This document shows positions 26,219 to 64,000 of a stretch of 64,000 nucleotides of DNA, piece by piece. Origin of the DNA: Acidobacteriota bacterium. Lineage in GTDB: Bacteria > Acidobacteriota > Terriglobia > Acidiferrales > UBA7541. The stretch's first letter is position 1. The number at the start of each line of letters is the position of its first letter. Position numbers and translations under genes: made by a program. The notes beneath the pieces were generated by a model, which worked only from the letters and a program-made list of their open reading frames with translations, searched no databases and was not told the origin of the DNA. The DNA lies in contig PLUM01000014.1 of NCBI GenBank assembly GCA_003165465.1, positions 63,999-127,998 of the forward strand, read 5' to 3'.

Positions 26219-27865
26219 ATGAAACCGTGGAAAACAGCGCTTTTTATTCTGGCAAGCGTTGCCTTTGTGACGATCGCTTATGCAATTTCCGTGATCCGGC
26301 GAGGATTCAGCGCGACGGATCAGCCTTCTGCCGTCGAGATGGTCCTGGCGCGGACCGTGCGGACCCTGGGTCTTCCGCGAACGGAACGGGATAAAGCGAA
26401 TCCATGGACCGCGACTCCCGCTCTGCTGGACGAGGCGCGGGAGAACTTCATGGACCATTGCGCGGGCTGCCACGGCAAGGATGGCGATGGGCGATCGGGG
26501 ATCGGCCAGAATCTTTATCCCAAGGCGCCGGATTTGCGCCGGCCCGAAACGCAAAAACTCACCGACGGCGAAATCCATTACACCATTCAGAACGGCGTGC
26601 GGCTCACGGGGATGCCGGCGTTCGGAAATCCGCACGGCGGTCAGGACGACAACAGCGCGTGGAAGCTGGTTCTCTTCGTTCGCTCCATCGGGCTGGCAAC
26701 GCCCCAGGAAAAAGCTGAACAAGTCGCAACAGCTGCCTCGGCGCACTACGTCGGCTCCGCCGCGTGTGAGAAATGCCACGGGGAAATTTACGAGCGCTGG
26801 AAAAAAACTCCCATGGCGAACGTCGTGCGCGATCCGCGCGAGCATCAGGACGCGATCATTCCCAATCTCGCTACAAATAATGTTAGCCCGAAGTTCACGA
26901 AGGACCAGGTTGCGTTCGTCTATGGCAGCATTTGGAAGCAGCGCTATTTCACGAAAATCGGCGACGACTATTTTCCCGAACCCGCGCAGTGGGACGTGAC
27001 CAACAAGGTTTGGAAGCCTTATTTTGTGCCCAAGGGTGGAGACTGGTGGGAACCGTTCTATCCCCCCGACAATAGGAAGCGGCCGACGGGGCCAACTTGC
27101 GACGGCTGCCACTCGGTGGATTACAACATTCAGACCAAGCAAGTGGCGGAATGGAATGTGGGCTGCGAGCGTTGCCACGGACCTGGGAGCGCTCATGTCG
27201 ATCACGCTACGCGCGAGAATATTCTGAATCCCGCGCGGATGGATTACGTCAGCGCCAGTGACACCTGCATCCAATGCCATTCGCAAGGGCGCCCGCTAAC
27301 CAATCCCATCGAAGGCAAATACTATGACTGGCCGGTCGGATATCGCGTGGGGTTGAATCTGCGGGATTACTGGCAGCTGGAAGATCACAAATTGGGTGAG
27401 CTGAGTTTTACGCATTTCCCCGAAGGCACGGCGCATAAGAACCGAATGCAGGGAAATGACTTCGCGCAGAGCGTGATGTACCGGCGCGGCGTCACCTGCT
27501 TCGATTGCCACGATGTGCATGGGACGGAGAACTACGCACAGCTTCGGAAACCAGTCGATAAAATTTGCCTGGATTGCCACGGACCCGGTTCTCGGAACGG
27601 GCCGCGCGAAGCAACTCTCGCGGAGCACACGCACCACAAGGGTGGCTCGACGGGCAGCGCCTGCGTCGCGTGCCACATGCCGAAGATCGAGGCGGAGATT
27701 CCCGGCATCTTCGTACGCGCGCACACGTTCGCGTTCCTCGCGCCGTCCATGACGGACAAATACAAAATTCCGAATCCCTGCACTTCCTGCCACATGGACA
27801 AGACCACCGCCTGGGCCACGGATGCGATGCGGCGCTGGACGGAACTTTCCCCATGGAGAGAATAA
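26219..27865 (+). CDS. nine-heme c-type cytochrome with fused N-terminal cytochrome c domain
   Basis: The protein has 548 residues. An uncleaved-looking membrane anchor (residues 6-24) is followed by a mono-heme cytochrome c domain with CAGCH at 81 and a likely Met ligand in GMPAF. A multiheme part follows with CXXCH sites at about 183, 294, 316, 350, 427, 450, 482 and 521, nine in all. The C-terminal part resembles cytochrome c554 and octaheme reductase-like proteins. It should work in the periplasm, anchored to the inner membrane, in electron transfer. No catalytic partner or NapC-type quinol oxidase is nearby. It is followed by an exported propeller protein and is divergent from a two-component system. 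Confidence 0.88.
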   Translation: MKPWKTALFILASVAFVTIAYAISVIRRGFSATDQPSAVEMVLARTVRTLGLPRTERDKANPWTATPALLDEARENFMDHCAGCHGKDGDGRSGIGQNLYPKAPDLRRPETQKLTDGEIHYTIQNGVRLTGMPAFGNPHGGQDDNSAWKLVLFVRSIGLATPQEKAEQVATAASAHYVGSAACEKCHGEIYERWKKTPMANVVRDPREHQDAIIPNLATNNVSPKFTKDQVAFVYGSIWKQRYFTKIGDDYFPEPAQWDVTNKVWKPYFVPKGGDWWEPFYPPDNRKRPTGPTCDGCHSVDYNIQTKQVAEWNVGCERCHGPGSAHVDHATRENILNPARMDYVSASDTCIQCHSQGRPLTNPIEGKYYDWPVGYRVGLNLRDYWQLEDHKLGELSFTHFPEGTAHKNRMQGNDFAQSVMYRRGVTCFDCHDVHGTENYAQLRKPVDKICLDCHGPGSRNGPREATLAEHTHHKGGSTGSACVACHMPKIEAEIPGIFVRAHTFAFLAPSMTDKYKIPNPCTSCHMDKTTAWATDAMRRWTELSPWRE

Positions 27866-29312: not shown

Positions 29313-29663
29313 ATGGCCTACGAAAAAGAAGACCAGGGCGACGAAAACGAGTTGGTGCATTTTGAGGAAGAAGAGATCGGCGGCGACCCGGAAGAAGTGA
29401 TCGAAGAGGAAATCGAAGAGGAACTGGTCATCGGCGAGCGCCCCGGGTTGGCGAGCGCTCCGCAACTTCCTATGGCGGCGTCGAAGTCGGTGGCGAAGAA
29501 GGCCAAGAAGAAGAAATCGAAGTTGAAGAAAAAAGCTCCAAAAAAGGTCCAAAAAAAGATTCACAAAAAGGTGAAAAACAAAGTGCAAAAAAAAGCCGCT
29601 CCGAAAAAAGTAGCCAAGAAGAAGGCAGCAAAAAAGGCAGTTAAGCGCGGCAAGAAGGGCTAA
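29313..29663 (+). CDS. small acidic/lysine-rich bipolar protein, histone-H1-like tail
   Basis: The protein has 116 residues from ATG 29313, with GGGAG seven bases upstream. The first half is strongly acidic (FEEEEIGGDPEEVIEEEIEE). The second half is a Lys/Ala/Pro tail with repeated KKA and KKV motifs (for example KKAKKKKSKLKKKAPKK), as in bacterial histone-H1-like and AlgP-like proteins. The tail could bind DNA or RNA and the acidic half could shield it. No fold is recognisable. A strong terminator follows 24 bp after the stop, so the gene is expressed as a short unit. The Lys tail is encoded by A-rich codons, unlike the GC-rich surroundings. Confidence 0.7.
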   Translation: MAYEKEDQGDENELVHFEEEEIGGDPEEVIEEEIEEELVIGERPGLASAPQLPMAASKSVAKKAKKKKSKLKKKAPKKVQKKIHKKVKNKVQKKAAPKKVAKKKAAKKAVKRGKKG

Positions 29664-29687
29664 CCGCCTTTCCAACGATTTCAACCG

Positions 29688-29723
29688 GGGCCTGGAGAGT
29701 CGATCTCCAGGCCCTTATCTTTT
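29688..29723 (+). terminator. rho-independent terminator
   Basis: A perfect 11-bp stem GGGCCTGGAGA / TCTCCAGGCCC (29688-29698 and 29704-29714) with loop GTCGA, followed by TTATCTTTT. It is positioned just after the lysine-rich protein gene. Confidence 0.9.
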
Positions 29724-29836: not shown

Positions 29837-30706
29837 ATGGCGGTCATGAGGATTGCCGTCGAGCAGGTGCGCCGGATGCGTGGGGGCGCACAGGCCCAAT
29901 TAATGCGGTGCGACGATGAGGCGTACTACATCGTCAAGTTTCAAAATAATCCGCAACATTTAAGGATTCTGGCAAACGAAATGCTCGCTACACGGCTGGC
30001 GGCGCGGCTGGGATTGTGCGTGCCGCAAGTCGACGTGGTTGAGGTGCGCCCGGAAATCGTCGCCTACACCCCGGACCTCACGATTCAACTGGGGATTGGC
30101 CGAAAACCTTGCGCGGCGGGAAAACAATTCGGGTCGCAGTTCCCGGGACATCCGGCGCGGATGACGGTCCACGATTTTTTGCCCGACGAGCAGTTGTGCG
30201 CGGTCCGCAATCTCACGGATTTTCTGGGCGTTCTGGTTCTGGATAAATGGACGTGCAACACCAACGGCCGCCAGGCGATTTTTTTTCGGGAACCCGGCGG
30301 CGCGGCCGCGAGTGAAACGCTTTCCACGGCCACCGATGCGGAGCCCTATACGGCGTCCTATTCGACGATGATGATCGATTTCGGATTCTGCTTCAACGCC
30401 GGGGAGTGGGATTTTCCCGATGCGCCGCTGCGCGGGCTGTACAGCCGCCATCGCGTCTATCAAGACGTTACCGGAATGGAATCGTTCGAGCCGTGGCTGG
30501 ACCGCCTGGAAAACCAGATCACCGAGCGCGTGCTGGGCGAGGAAGCCGCGCAGATTCCGCCGGAGTGGTATGACGGCGACTGGAGCGCGCTCGAGCGGCT
30601 GCTGGAGCGTCTCCACAGCCGGCGCAAGCGCGTGCGCGAACTGATTCTCTCGGCCCGGGATTCGGGCCGCGAACCGTTTCCCAACTGGAAGGTGAGACAT
30701 GCCTGA
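29837..30706 (+). CDS. HipA-like kinase-fold protein
   Basis: The protein has about 289 residues from ATG 29837. Motifs match HipA-like kinases: YYIVKFQNNPQH with a nucleotide-contacting Lys, LANEMLATRLAARLG, the catalytic-loop-like VLDKWTCNTNGRQAIFF, and the metal-binding-like MMIDFGFCFNAGEWDF. It lacks the N-terminal domain and HipB partner of classical HipA toxins. The next gene, encoding a DUF3037 protein, overlaps it, a pairing also known from other genomes. HipA phosphorylates tRNA synthetase; here the substrate is unknown, and it may be a regulator rather than a toxin. Confidence 0.75.
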   Translation: MAVMRIAVEQVRRMRGGAQAQLMRCDDEAYYIVKFQNNPQHLRILANEMLATRLAARLGLCVPQVDVVEVRPEIVAYTPDLTIQLGIGRKPCAAGKQFGSQFPGHPARMTVHDFLPDEQLCAVRNLTDFLGVLVLDKWTCNTNGRQAIFFREPGGAAASETLSTATDAEPYTASYSTMMIDFGFCFNAGEWDFPDAPLRGLYSRHRVYQDVTGMESFEPWLDRLENQITERVLGEEAAQIPPEWYDGDWSALERLLERLHSRRKRVRELILSARDSGREPFPNWKVRHA

Positions 30707-31523
30707 CGAAACAACCTTAAACCCCTGCGCCTATCACGTGGTGCGCTACCAGCCGAATTTGATTCGCGACGAGTGGGTCAACATCGGCGTCCTGCTGCTG
30801 GATCCGGCCACGGGGCGCGTCCGCCAGCGCTGGCTCGACGAGCCCGCCGACCTCGTGCGCCTGCGGCGCATGCATCCGGCCGCGGACGAGGAGCTTCTCT
30901 TGCGGCTGCCCGCGGAATTCGAGCGGCAGTTTGCCGGCCGCGAAATGGACGCCGAAGCGATCCTCGAAAAATTCGACGATACGCTGTCCAACGCCGTGCA
31001 GCTCGCGCCGCGCAAAGGGCTGCTCTCGCGCGACCCGGAAGCGGAACTCGACCGCATCTTCCGCGAGCAGGTCGAGCCCCTGCGCGAGACGCGGCGCGGC
31101 GCGCCCGAAATCCGCACGCGCAGCGACCTGCGCGCGCGTGCCGCCGATTATTTCCGCACCGAAAAAATTCTGCGCCTCATGCACCGCTCCGTGCGCGTCG
31201 AGGAGTTCACGGTCCCGGGCGATCCCATGCGCATCGACTTTTCCTACCGCCGCAACGGCACGCGCGGTTTTGTCCATTCCGTGGCGCTCGGGCGCGATCC
31301 GGGGCAGGCGAAACTCCTGGCGTACACGGCGGGGGCGATTCGGGGGCGTATGGAACACTCGGAATTTATGGCTGTCACCGAACGCGAGCCCGCGCGCGGC
31401 AACGTACGCGACCAGTTCGTTTCCGGCATCCTCGCGGAGAACGATATTCGCGTGGTGCCGCTCGCCGAGCTGCGCAAGTGGGCCCACGATGTGGCGCCGG
31501 TGCTGCGGGCGGAGAGCGCGTGA
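30699..31523 (+). CDS. DUF3037 domain protein, partner of the HipA-like kinase
   Basis: This 274-residue protein begins with the DUF3037 hallmark YHVVRYQPNLIRDEWVNIGVLLLDP and continues with a conserved RWLDEPADLVRLRRM segment. The middle is rich in Glu and Arg and the C-terminal half is unassigned. The ATG lies inside the 3' end of the HipA-like gene (overlap 30699-30706), so the two are translated together. Function is unknown; the fixed pairing suggests that it is a modulator or target of the kinase. Confidence 0.8.
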   Translation: MPDETTLNPCAYHVVRYQPNLIRDEWVNIGVLLLDPATGRVRQRWLDEPADLVRLRRMHPAADEELLLRLPAEFERQFAGREMDAEAILEKFDDTLSNAVQLAPRKGLLSRDPEAELDRIFREQVEPLRETRRGAPEIRTRSDLRARAADYFRTEKILRLMHRSVRVEEFTVPGDPMRIDFSYRRNGTRGFVHSVALGRDPGQAKLLAYTAGAIRGRMEHSEFMAVTEREPARGNVRDQFVSGILAENDIRVVPLAELRKWAHDVAPVLRAESA

Positions 31524-31699
31524 TTCGTGAATCGTGATTCGTGATTCGTGTTTGGCGGGAATTTTGCGGAGGGCGGAAAAGTTGAGAGTCGAGAGTTAAA
31601 CTAGGACCGACCGGTGCGATGGGTTCGTTTTTAACTCTCAACTCTTAACTGTCAACTCTCGACTCTTCACGAATTACAAATCACGATTCACGAATCACG
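31521..31699. repeat. heptamer repeat array forming an inverted repeat (family E, copy E1)
   Basis: The left arm starts with heptamers GTGATTC, GTGAATC, GTGATTC, GTGATTC and continues with AGAGTCG-type units. The right arm reads AACTCTC, AACTCTT, AACTGTC, AACTCTC, GACTCTT, CACGAAT, TACAAAT, CACGATT, CACGAAT, CACG, all in 7-base register. The two arms are complementary and flank about 35 bp. The element lies between the DUF3037 stop and the E2 stop of two convergent genes. Confidence 0.85.
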
Positions 31700-33106: not shown

Positions 33107-33270
33107 AGGTGACTGGTGACTGGTGATTAGTGACTGGTGAAGAGTCGAGAGTCGACAGTTCAGAGTTGAGAGTTAAAACCTCATCCATGACGCGGATTCG
33201 GGCCTGTTTAACTCTCGATTCTAAACTGTAAGCTTCCGACGATTCACCAGTCACTAGTCACTAGTCACCT
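33107..33270. repeat. heptamer repeat array forming an inverted repeat (family E, copy E2)
   Basis: The left arm contains GGTGACT, GGTGACT, GGTGATT, AGTGACT, GGTGAAG, AGTCGAG, AGTCGAC, AGTTCAG, AGTTGAG, AGTTAAA in 7-base register. The right arm is its complement, ending in CACTAGTCACTAGTCACC. The loop is about 30 bp. It sits between the E1 beta stop and the E2 start, within the operon. Confidence 0.85.
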
Positions 33271-36910: not shown

Positions 36911-36960
36911 TTAACTCTGAACTCTAAACTCTGAACTCTAAACTCTCGACTCTCAACTGC
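36911..36960. repeat. perfect heptamer repeat array (family E, copy E4)
   Basis: About seven consecutive units in one register: AACTCTG, AACTCTA, AACTCTG, AACTCTA, AACTCTC, GACTCTC, AACTGC. It fills the gap between lpdA and the DinB-like gene and ends 3 bp before the lpdA stop. Unlike E1 and E2 it is a single-direction array. Confidence 0.85.
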
Positions 36961-62151: not shown

Positions 62152-64000
62152 ATGGAAGAAAAATACTTCGGACATTCCGTCATTCGCAAAGAGGGCCGGG
62201 ACAAAGTCCTGGGCCGCGCGCGGTACGTGGATGACCTCTCCGCTCCGGAAATGATCCACGGCGTGACCGTGCGCAGCAGCGTGGCGCGCGGGCGCATCCT
62301 CGGCATCCGTTTCGGCGAAGGCATTCCGTGGGGCGAATTCGCGGTGGTCACCGCCGCCGACATTCCCGGCAAAAACGAAATCGCGTTGATCGAGCACGAT
62401 CAGCCCTGCCTCGCCTCCGAATTCATCAACCACCAGGCGGAAGCCGTCGTTCTGCTCGCGCATCGGGACCGATATTTGCTGGAAGAGGCGCGGCGCGCGG
62501 TGCACATCGACGTGGAGCCGCTGCCCGCGATTTTTTCGATCGAGGATTCGCTCGCGAAACGCGCCGTTATTTTTGGCGAGGACAACATTTTCAAATCCTA
62601 CCGCATGGAAAAGGGCGGCGTGGACGCGGCCATGGCGCAGGCGGACGTGATCGTCGAGAGCGAATACAGGACCGGGGCGCAGGAACAGCTCTACATCGAG
62701 AATCAGGGCATGATCGCGGTGGCCAATCCCGAGGAGGGCGTAACCGTCTGGGGCTCGCTGCAATGCCCCTACTACGTGCACAAGGCGCTGGTTGCGGTGT
62801 TCGGTTTCCCTCCGGAAAAAATTCGCGTGATTCAAGCCGAGACGGGCGGCGGCTTCGGCGGCAAGGAAGAATATCCGTCGATCATCGCGGCGCATGCGGC
62901 GCTGCTCTCGTGGAAGGCCGGAAGGCCCGTGAAAATTGTGTACGACCGCGCGGAAGACATGGTGGCGACCACCAAGCGCCATCCCTCGCGCACGCGGCAC
63001 CGCACGGGCGTCACGCGCGACGGCAAACTGGTCGCGATGGACATCGATTTCACGATTGACGGCGGCGCGTACGCGACGCTTTCCTCCGTGGTGCTCTCGC
63101 GCGGGACGATTCACGCGGCGGGGCCTTACTTCTGCCCCAACGTGCGCGTGCATTCGCGGGCCGTGGCAACGAACGCTCCGCCGCACGGCGCGTTTCGCGG
63201 CTTTGGCGCGCCGCAAAGTATTTTCGCGCTGGAGCGACACCTCGACGAGGTGGCGCGCGCCGTAAATCTGACGCCGGAAGAATTCCGGCGGCGAAATTTT
63301 ATTCACGCGGGCCAGACAACCGCCACCGGGCAGGTGATTCACGAGGACGTAAATCTCGGCGCACTCGTCGACCGCGCCTTCCGCGAAAGCGATTACCACG
63401 CCAAGCGCGAGCGCTTTGCGCGGGAAAATCCCGGCGCGACCGTCAAGCGCGGCATCGGCTTCGCTTCCTTCATGCACGGAGCGGGATTTACCGGGTCGGG
63501 CGAAGATTACCTGGCGTCGGTCGTTGAGCTGGAAGCGACAGAGGAAGGAATCGTTCGCGTGCTCGCGGCCAGCGCCGAAATCGGACAAGGCTCGAACACA
63601 ATTTTCTCGCAAATTGCGGCGGACGCGCTCGGCATCGGCTACGACCGCATCGAAATCGCGCAGCCCGATACCAGCGCGGTGCCCAACAGCGGCCCCACGG
63701 TGGCTTCGCGCACGTCGATGGTGGTTGGCAACCTGGTGGAAACCGCCGCGCACAGTTTGAAACGCCAACTGGTGGAAAGCGGCCTGCTGTGCGACGCATG
63801 CACCGAGGTTGAATTTGTGCGCGCCTGCCGGCGCTACATCGAAACGCGCGGGCCGCTCCGCTCGCGCAGCCAGTACCAGGCTCCTCCCGGCCTGCACTGG
63901 AACGATGCGACCTACAGCGGCGACGCGTACGGAGCCTACGCGTGGGCCGTTTATGTTGCCGAGGTCGCTGTGGATACCGTTACGTTCGAGGCGCGCGTCA
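62152..64000 (+). CDS. xanthine dehydrogenase-family molybdopterin-binding subunit, N-terminal part
   Basis: The frame is open from ATG 62152 to the end, giving 616 residues. Family signatures are FGHSVIRKEGRDKVLGRARYVDDL at the start, VVTAADIPGKNEIALIEHDQPCLA, the HQAEAVVLLAHRD segment, EQLYIENQGMIAV, the Mo-site glycine loop ETGGGFGGKEEYPS, PPHGAFRGFGAPQ and, further on, the ASAEIGQGSNTIFSQIAADALGI region. The family hydroxylates purines or aldehydes using molybdopterin. The preceding guanine deaminase suggests xanthine as substrate. The FAD and iron-sulfur subunits are not in the window. A long antisense frame overlaps it but is not a gene. Confidence 0.92.
   Translation, partial: MEEKYFGHSVIRKEGRDKVLGRARYVDDLSAPEMIHGVTVRSSVARGRILGIRFGEGIPWGEFAVVTAADIPGKNEIALIEHDQPCLASEFINHQAEAVVLLAHRDRYLLEEARRAVHIDVEPLPAIFSIEDSLAKRAVIFGEDNIFKSYRMEKGGVDAAMAQADVIVESEYRTGAQEQLYIENQGMIAVANPEEGVTVWGSLQCPYYVHKALVAVFGFPPEKIRVIQAETGGGFGGKEEYPSIIAAHAALLSWKAGRPVKIVYDRAEDMVATTKRHPSRTRHRTGVTRDGKLVAMDIDFTIDGGAYATLSSVVLSRGTIHAAGPYFCPNVRVHSRAVATNAPPHGAFRGFGAPQSIFALERHLDEVARAVNLTPEEFRRRNFIHAGQTTATGQVIHEDVNLGALVDRAFRESDYHAKRERFARENPGATVKRGIGFASFMHGAGFTGSGEDYLASVVELEATEEGIVRVLAASAEIGQGSNTIFSQIAADALGIGYDRIEIAQPDTSAVPNSGPTVASRTSMVVGNLVETAAHSLKRQLVESGLLCDACTEVEFVRACRRYIETRGPLRSRSQYQAPPGLHWNDATYSGDAYGAYAWAVYVAEVAVDTVTFEARV

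Follow-up and report, generated by a model that had tools for sequence, protein, structure and literature searches.

A HipA_2-DUF3037 gene pair with asparagine at the kinase catalytic position in Acidobacteriota, and its place in a phage-derived packaging cluster of relatives

The gene pair and its two products

Contig PLUM01000014.1 of an Acidobacteriota bacterium (assembly GCA_003165465.1) carries, within the 64,000 nucleotides from position 63,999 to 127,998 that we analysed and call the window, a HipA-like kinase gene of the HipA_2 family that overlaps a DUF3037 gene (Table 1). An earlier note on this DNA, made from the letters alone, had described this arrangement, and both open reading frames (ORFs), their strand and their families hold. 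The match of the kinase to HipA_2 (E = 1.2e-11, cut-off 27 bits) covers only profile positions 5-96 of 240, the partner matches DUF3037 with 56.8 bits (E = 3.3e-15, cut-off 22.6), and an NCBIfam scan gave nothing useful. The kinase frame is open from an ATG at 29837 or at 29846 to the stop at 30704-30706, with the second start better supported because the N-termini of relatives align there. Among 78 relatives with a DUF3037 match, six share the -8 overlap geometry of the window, and 31 have a +3 spacing. The genome, a fragmented assembly of 121 contigs that is 89% complete with 6.9% contamination, has a single match to each family, and the most similar kinases among named relatives come from metagenome-assembled genomes of Acidobacteria and Terriglobia. 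Ratios of nonsynonymous to synonymous substitution (dN/dS) of 0.06-0.16 for the kinase and 0.08-0.25 for DUF3037 (21 pairs per gene, seven genomes) indicate purifying selection on both genes, and since the pair is also kept across the class, it is more than a chance neighbourhood and can indeed be regarded as a conserved two-gene module.

A classical HipAB system was rejected, as Pfam finds nothing in the two proteins beyond HipA_2/HipA_C and DUF3037. No helix-turn-helix, as in the HipB-like partner of HipAB, was matched in the DUF3037 protein at E ≤ 0.1, and the lysine-rich protein encoded upstream has no Pfam match, so that, as far as these searches go, the absence of a HipB-like repressor claimed earlier is borne out. 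The same applies to the N-terminal HipA domain, which has no Pfam match here: the kinase model is a kinase fold over residues 1-285, and in all but one of the HipA chains listed among its structural matches, the aligned part starts no earlier than HipA residue 139.

Table 1. Coordinates of the gene pair and associated features in the window
Feature	Position	Strand	Basis
Terminator-like hairpin between the pair and the Lys-rich gene preceding it	29687..29715	+	12-pair stem, then T-rich tail
HipA_2-family kinase-fold protein, 286 aa	29846..30706	+	ORF; PF20613, 44.8 bits; AlphaFold2 model; PDB neighbours
Codon of K31 (VKF, ATP-binding Lys, strand beta3)	29936..29938	+	Invariant in 61 aligned sequences, window included
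Codon AAC of N140, catalytic-Asp position (CNT-N-GRQ replacing NxD-R)	30263..30265	+	Alignments, hhalign
Codons of R142-Q143, shortened loop	30269..30274	+	Both invariant in 61 sequences, Asp- and Asn-types included
Codon of D178, Asp of DFG-like motif (IDFG), retained	30377..30379	+	Invariant in 61 sequences
Overlap of 8 nt where the kinase gene ends and the DUF3037 gene begins, ATGCCTGA	30699..30706	+	Sequence
DUF3037 protein, 274 aa, two domains	30699..31523	+	PF11236 at residues 12-125; AlphaFold2 model
C-terminal half of DUF3037 protein (residues 140-273), PD-(D/E)XK-nuclease-like fold without E-x-K	31116..31517	+

The AlphaFold2 model of the kinase has a mean predicted local distance difference test score (pLDDT) of 90.2 and a predicted template modelling score (pTM) of 0.88, and its structural neighbours in the PDB are CtkA (Z = 14.8), PI4KII (14.3), Shewanella HipA (12.7), CotH (12.3), HipT (12.1) and Fam20 (12.0), with Fam20A among them. 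Sequence searches of the PDB returned nothing under E = 0.09 for the kinase profile (HipA appears at E = 1), nothing under E = 0.07 for the DUF3037 profile, and no match for four canonical kinases. The DUF3037 model (mean pLDDT 91.9, pTM 0.58) consists of two domains. A structural search of this partner, which the earlier note had suggested, relates its C-terminal half to PD-(D/E)XK-type and related proteins, namely Can2 (Z = 10.5), VC1899 (9.9), PspGI (9.5), Cdn1 (9.2) and Card1 (9.0), in matches spanning residues 133-274; with Foldseek alone, no match went below E = 0.001, the best having 1.3e-3. In an alignment of 58 partners, D180 is present in all, position 193, where Glu is expected, is His or Gln in all, and position 195, where Lys is expected, is hydrophobic. 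Since K205 in the next helix is conserved in 57 of the 58, a migrated lysine is possible. This half is likely a docking domain for nucleic acid or protein.

Asparagine in place of the catalytic aspartate

Canonical HipA_2 kinases carry the motif D-x-[WFL]-x-x-N-x-D...N-[LI]-L, where the window lineage has D-K-W-T-C-N-T-N-G-R-Q, and N140 lines up with the catalytic Asp in a profile-profile alignment by hhalign. The loop that follows is shortened, and the canonical loop Asn, which binds metal, is without a counterpart: A144 falls on its position and Q143 one residue before, in a gap-adjacent placement that is uncertain. Q143 was considered as a stand-in for the metal-binding Asn and rejected, as the alignment puts A144 there. 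K31, assigned as the ATP-binding lysine, and D178 of the DxG motif are both kept. Because these two residues remain but the catalytic Asp and the canonical loop do not, nucleotide binding without efficient phosphotransfer is the most likely state of the protein. The substitution had escaped the earlier reading of this locus.

The Asn is a property of the lineage. It is found in 29 of 30 aligned sequences, and in the alignment used for a tree, column 140 reads Asn in 96 and Asp in 55 of 151 lineage rows, on which ground a sequencing error was dismissed. All eight canonical HipA_2 rows have Asp; not all of these are DUF3037-paired, at least one (L144) being without an annotated DUF3037 neighbour. 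We then related this residue to the presence of an adjacent partner in 153 distinct kinases (one best match per locus, leaving out matches below 100 bits and duplicates judged by the last 120 residues), sampled by profile search rather than at random and typed by a motif rule that requires RQ after position 141. Asn occurs with DUF3037 in 96 and alone in none, and Asp occurs alone in 39 and with DUF3037 in 16, the remaining two being unreadable, one in each partner state. In 112 of 113 paired kinases, the DUF3037 frame starts at most 200 bp behind the kinase frame, and in the exception it lies 960 bp away. When Asn-types are compared with solo Asp-types column by column, position 140 is the only clean discriminator, with position 186 separating them in part, which marks N140 as a specific change and not decay; together with the dN/dS values, this single discriminating column led us to reject a decaying pseudogene. 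On a quick IQ-TREE tree computed with column 140 removed, in which many forks are weak, the Asn/Asp state needs nine changes, at least five of them forced by starred branches, so residue 140 has changed repeatedly; partner presence needs eight. Five solo Asp-type kinases (L028, identical with L108; L256; L258; L259; and L274), some of them on long branches, are candidates for still active kinases; G004, G019 and G465, among the genomes that hold them, carry an Asn-type pair too.

Two explanations would leave the N140 proteins with a catalytic life. In the first, they are still enzymes that phosphorylate slowly or perform some other nucleotidyl transfer, for example by AMPylation as SelO-type kinases do, with DUF3037 as activator or substrate. 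The strong purifying selection would suit an enzyme, as would the clean change of column 140 alone while the other invariant active-site positions stay, including R142 and Q143 in Asp- and Asn-types alike. However, nothing positive points to another chemistry, replacement of Asp by Asn at the catalytic position usually disables kinases, and a structure of HipA(D309Q) bound to ADP, according to its PDB title, fits binding without catalysis; we regard this explanation as unlikely. The second arises from the residue that follows, since Asn-Gly is the fastest-deamidating dipeptide and Gly stands at position 141 in 96 of 96 Asn-types (codons 30263-30268 in the window), as opposed to 30 of 55 Asp-types, where Ala (13), Ser (10) and Thr (2) make up the rest. 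N140-G141 could then be a pro-form that deamidates to Asp, slowly or with help from the partner, making the kinase a timer and not a dead enzyme. These counts do not take relatedness into account, the branches in which Asn arose may simply have had Gly beforehand, and nothing else points to deamidation, which makes the idea extremely improbable.

Inheritance and the packaging cluster of relatives

Co-occurrence across genomes, the other comparison suggested in the earlier note, shows the kinase in 243 of 299 genomes of the class (203 of the 239 better ones) and in 48 of 61 genomes of relatives of the window, its own genome included. Across the phylum it is present in 19 of 149 genomes, comprising that of the window, 14 of its class and four of other classes, three of them weak. 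DUF3037 is found in 45 of the 61 relatives with the window protein as query and in 185 of the 299 class genomes with the Pfam model. In family f7, class-wide scans give 65 genomes with the kinase and 18 with any DUF3037, by hand count of the printed rows. No kinase match was found in the phages collection, and only five weak ones in plasmids.

In relatives, the pair has a distinctive neighbourhood. In family f11 (Acidobacteriaceae and kin, by the named loci), it lies between a terminase gene (TerL) and a portal gene in a phage packaging cluster with the order TerL (phrog_2, 4.6e-27), kinase, DUF3037, portal (PF04860, 8.9e-56) and head genes, including a head-tail adaptor (phrog_442). TerL, portal and head-tail adaptor are named by PHROGs and Pfam, and the labels 'protease-like' (c13) and major capsid protein (MCP) are guesses for proteins with no family match under E = 0.001. 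The order TerL-kinase-DUF3037-portal holds in 17 of 20 hand-picked f11 stretches; of the others, L299 had been fetched around the portal and covers just that side, and L292 and L293 are without phage genes. A few genomes of the window's own family, f1, have the same cluster (G014, G025 and G006, the last seen on the portal side only). In IMG/VR, 23 contigs match, and all 22 with an uncut kinase show the same four-gene order, 16 with Asn and six with Asp. Among the 153 kinases, TerL and/or portal adjoin 34 of 96 Asn-types, 3 of 16 Asp-types with DUF3037 and none of the 39 solo or two unreadable kinases, and these counts are lower bounds because many flanks are only 0.5-1.5 kb long. A portal was found in only five of the 61 relatives and in none of six genomes of the window's genus.

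To compare descent, protein distances in 23 hand-picked genomes were set against those of RpoB, chosen by its motif GRHGNKG. Correlations are high for the kinase (r = 0.949, n = 22; f11 alone 0.907, n = 19), DUF3037 (0.947, n = 22; f11 0.944), TerL (0.863, n = 21; f11 0.752) and portal (0.879, n = 23; f11 0.844), and the MCP-like protein gives 0.579 (f11 0.890); for each of these five, none of 2000 permutations was as high as observed. Two further cluster proteins give 0.771 (f11 0.584) and 0.865 (f11 0.614), with at most 16 of 2000 permutations as high. The packaging cluster has thus been inherited largely with its host in these genomes. The lineage of the window is a separate, old one, vertically inherited where tested.

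These results bear on whether the pair is a passenger, or 'moron', left in its hosts by a phage lineage and persisting by chance with no host function. The four-gene order in phage-like contigs would fit such an origin, but in the window's genus dN/dS is about 0.1 and no portal accompanies the pair, the kinase occurs in 39 of 41 f7 genomes, where the sampled copies have no TerL or portal within the ~1.5 kb read per side, and distances track the host. A mere passenger is, consequently, very improbable.

The cluster itself resembles gene transfer agents (GTAs) and domesticated prophages, in that the f11 genomes tested have a short terminase-portal-head cluster that tracks host RpoB. Inheritance of a packaging cluster with the host, as expected of a GTA, was seen in the relatives only, in hand-picked genomes. 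Unlike in GTAs, the window's genome yielded neither terminase nor portal. We know of no such kinase pair in known GTAs. In Acidobacteriaceae ZG23-2 (CP085323.1; L134:1797-16073, L276-L278), the packaging cluster with the kinase pair has a large pectate-lyase-like gene upstream of TerL, and it is a candidate for a GTA-like element. A fixed chromosomal site of the cluster beside pyrRBC-like genes, as in the same genome (G405), where the pyr names are assigned from the sequences, was dropped, as none of the 20 f11 stretches showed these genes (each ~20 kb, matches under 30% of query length not counted). For Acidobacteriaceae KBS 146, a published table has a portal gene and no prophage, capsid or terminase (PMC5900883), which fits a domesticated or remnant cluster. 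Defective-prophage regions have been suggested in Acidobacteriaceae, with GTAs named as a general outcome in the sections consulted (PMC12142844). No description of a GTA in Acidobacteria was found in our searches, which covered literature listings and passages of these two reports and of PMC11924767.

Interpretation, related systems and neighbouring features

HipA_2-DUF3037 pairs are not new, and the earlier view of the module as uncharacterised, which missed the previous description of the pairing, has to be given up: PADLOC models PDC-M66A and PDC-M66B match the window proteins (27.5 and 28.3 bits), and the family is also known as DS-6 (HipAD) and as the effector of Retron-Sda1. The HipA/DUF3037 pair of Retron-Sda1 is reported to defend without the reverse transcriptase (RT); it no longer does so once HipA is deleted, and deleting DUF3037 proves toxic (PMC12548924). 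DS-6, renamed HipAD, defends against phage and ceases to do so when a residue predicted to be catalytic in DS-6A, unnamed in the passages seen, is mutated, and AlphaFold3 predicted contacts between kinase and DUF3037 and between DUF3037 and DNA (PMC13092281, in the part accessible). The strings 'acidobacteri-', 'terminase' and 'pseudokinase' have no occurrence in the main texts of either report.

These precedents, together with the shared families and gene order (a HipA_2-type kinase gene, then a DUF3037 gene) and the two PADLOC matches, give substance to the toxin or defence role that the earlier note had raised, in which the pair is an ordinary HipAD/PDC-M66 toxin-antitoxin whose kinase arrests the cell upon phage infection and is otherwise restrained by DUF3037. 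The lineage of the window departs from these systems in several respects. It has Asn for the catalytic Asp, and it is widespread in its class and tracks its host. Defence systems are usually patchy in distribution, but this kinase is present across the class and follows RpoB in the genomes tested, in a distribution that is neither patchy nor mobile nor tied to defence islands. Housekeeping genes flank the pair in the window's family, and several genomes have strong PDC-M66A matches besides the core kinase. The kinases with no DUF3037 next to them persist nonetheless, and all 39 that are readable have kept Asp. With fold, lysine and DxG aspartate kept, the catalytic Asp replaced, Asn-types always paired and solo Asp-types stable, a live toxin held in check by DUF3037 is argued against, and we consider ordinary defence distinctly unlikely for this lineage. 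DUF1829, present in the DUF3037 partner DS-6B, was matched in 0 of 58 window-lineage partners at E ≤ 0.05, and a divergent copy is possible. The Retron-Sda1 effector is the same pair of families, but there the pair is toxic, defensive and beside a retron RT, unlike the probably inactive window kinase; no RT was found among the seven window neighbours scanned. HipAB and HipBST share the kinase fold (Z = 10.7-12.7 to HipA chains and 10.2-12.1 to HipT chains), and differ in that the window kinase is partnered by DUF3037, has no HipA N-terminal domain and has lost the catalytic Asp. On a Deinococcus aetherius plasmid (L143:1739-4715), the gene of an XRE-family regulator immediately precedes a canonical HipA kinase-DUF3037 pair, possibly a three-gene version.

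On balance, and by a modest degree, we favour a different reading: the pair belongs to a vertically inherited HipA_2-DUF3037 branch in which the kinase has become a probable pseudokinase, serving as a nucleotide-dependent partner of DUF3037 and, in relatives, as a regulator of the packaging cluster. The window kinase keeps its fold under selection and has lost an essential catalytic residue, as have pseudokinases such as HER3 and FAM20A, and like these it may act through partner binding; unlike them it is bacterial, HipA-like and partnered by DUF3037, with a regulatory action that we infer. Retention of fold, K31 and D178 beside N140, with the DUF3037 gene adjoining, points to a nucleotide-binding pseudokinase working through its partner, the protein encoded by the overlapping gene. 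The pair is thus probably a tamed regulator and not a toxin, a regulatory role being the best reading of the module, and it would best be described as an ATP-binding complex of pseudokinase and DUF3037, co-opted next to a domesticated packaging module of phage origin. From its setting in the packaging clusters of relatives, the pair may control how DNA is packaged or particles are produced there; inside an inherited phage-derived cluster, it would regulate these steps or neutralise a relative that invades. The window's genus has the pair alone, where it would be a retained part of this packaging association or its host-side source.

Several observations weigh against this reading. The association of Asn with the partner is total in the counts, yet it is not significant once relatedness is counted: of five independent pairs, two or three change Asn and partner the same way, none the opposite way, and the rest are uninformative (median p = 0.25). 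Since 16 of 112 readable paired kinases and six of the 22 IMG/VR contigs keep Asp, Asn is not required for pairing. In the Asp-types, too, the loop is shortened and the canonical Asn missing, and for this reason they are not certainly active themselves, and a D-to-N change can leave residual activity. Finally, with neither terminase nor portal found in its 89%-complete genome, the window pair is linked to phage by ancestry only. A bolder extension, which we hold to be doubtful, is that the cluster is an ancient, so far unrecognised acidobacterial GTA-like element with the pseudokinase-DUF3037 pair as packaging controller, that the repeated change from Asp to Asn, confined to kinases with an adjacent partner, marks a switch from a defence-type kinase, and that lineages such as that of the window have kept the controller only.

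HipA-DUF3037 modules have recently been validated as phage-defence toxin pairs, and the taming of such a pair would be illustrated by a sister lineage, widespread in one class, whose kinase is probably dead and which is tied to a phage-derived packaging cluster. It would caution against annotating every HipA-DUF3037 pair as defence, its natural set of Asp and Asn, paired and unpaired kinases would help to find the job of DUF3037, and the cluster is a pointer to a possible GTA-like element in a major soil phylum.

Around the pair, the opposite strand that follows encodes 2-oxoacid dehydrogenase E2, E1-beta and E1-alpha subunits and a lipoyl transferase, and across 52 loci, window included, the neighbours comprise LysM/transglycosylase (25), E2 (16), EF-G-like (11) and Cys/Met pyridoxal phosphate enzyme (10) genes. 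Directly upstream (29313-29663, forward strand) lies a gene whose small protein product is acidic at the N-terminus and ends in a Lys/Ala-rich tail resembling that of histone H1, and by a simple composition rule, basic ORFs precede the kinase in 36 of 77 loci, window included; the protein may be part of a conserved neighbourhood. The hairpin between this gene and the pair is a consensus match only, as the region has one and shuffled versions average 2.9. An intergenic inverted repeat of GATTCACGAATCACG and AACTCTCAACTCT units occupies 31519-31699, right after DUF3037, and recurs at 33162, 36303 and 36913-36953; with one mismatch allowed, AACTCTCAACTCT has 11 copies in the window for 0.02 expected, and these units look like a dispersed intergenic repeat. 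Farther upstream, a forward-strand gene at 26219-27865 encodes a multihaem c-type cytochrome-like protein with matches to Cytochrom_c3_2, Paired_CXXCH_1 and others.

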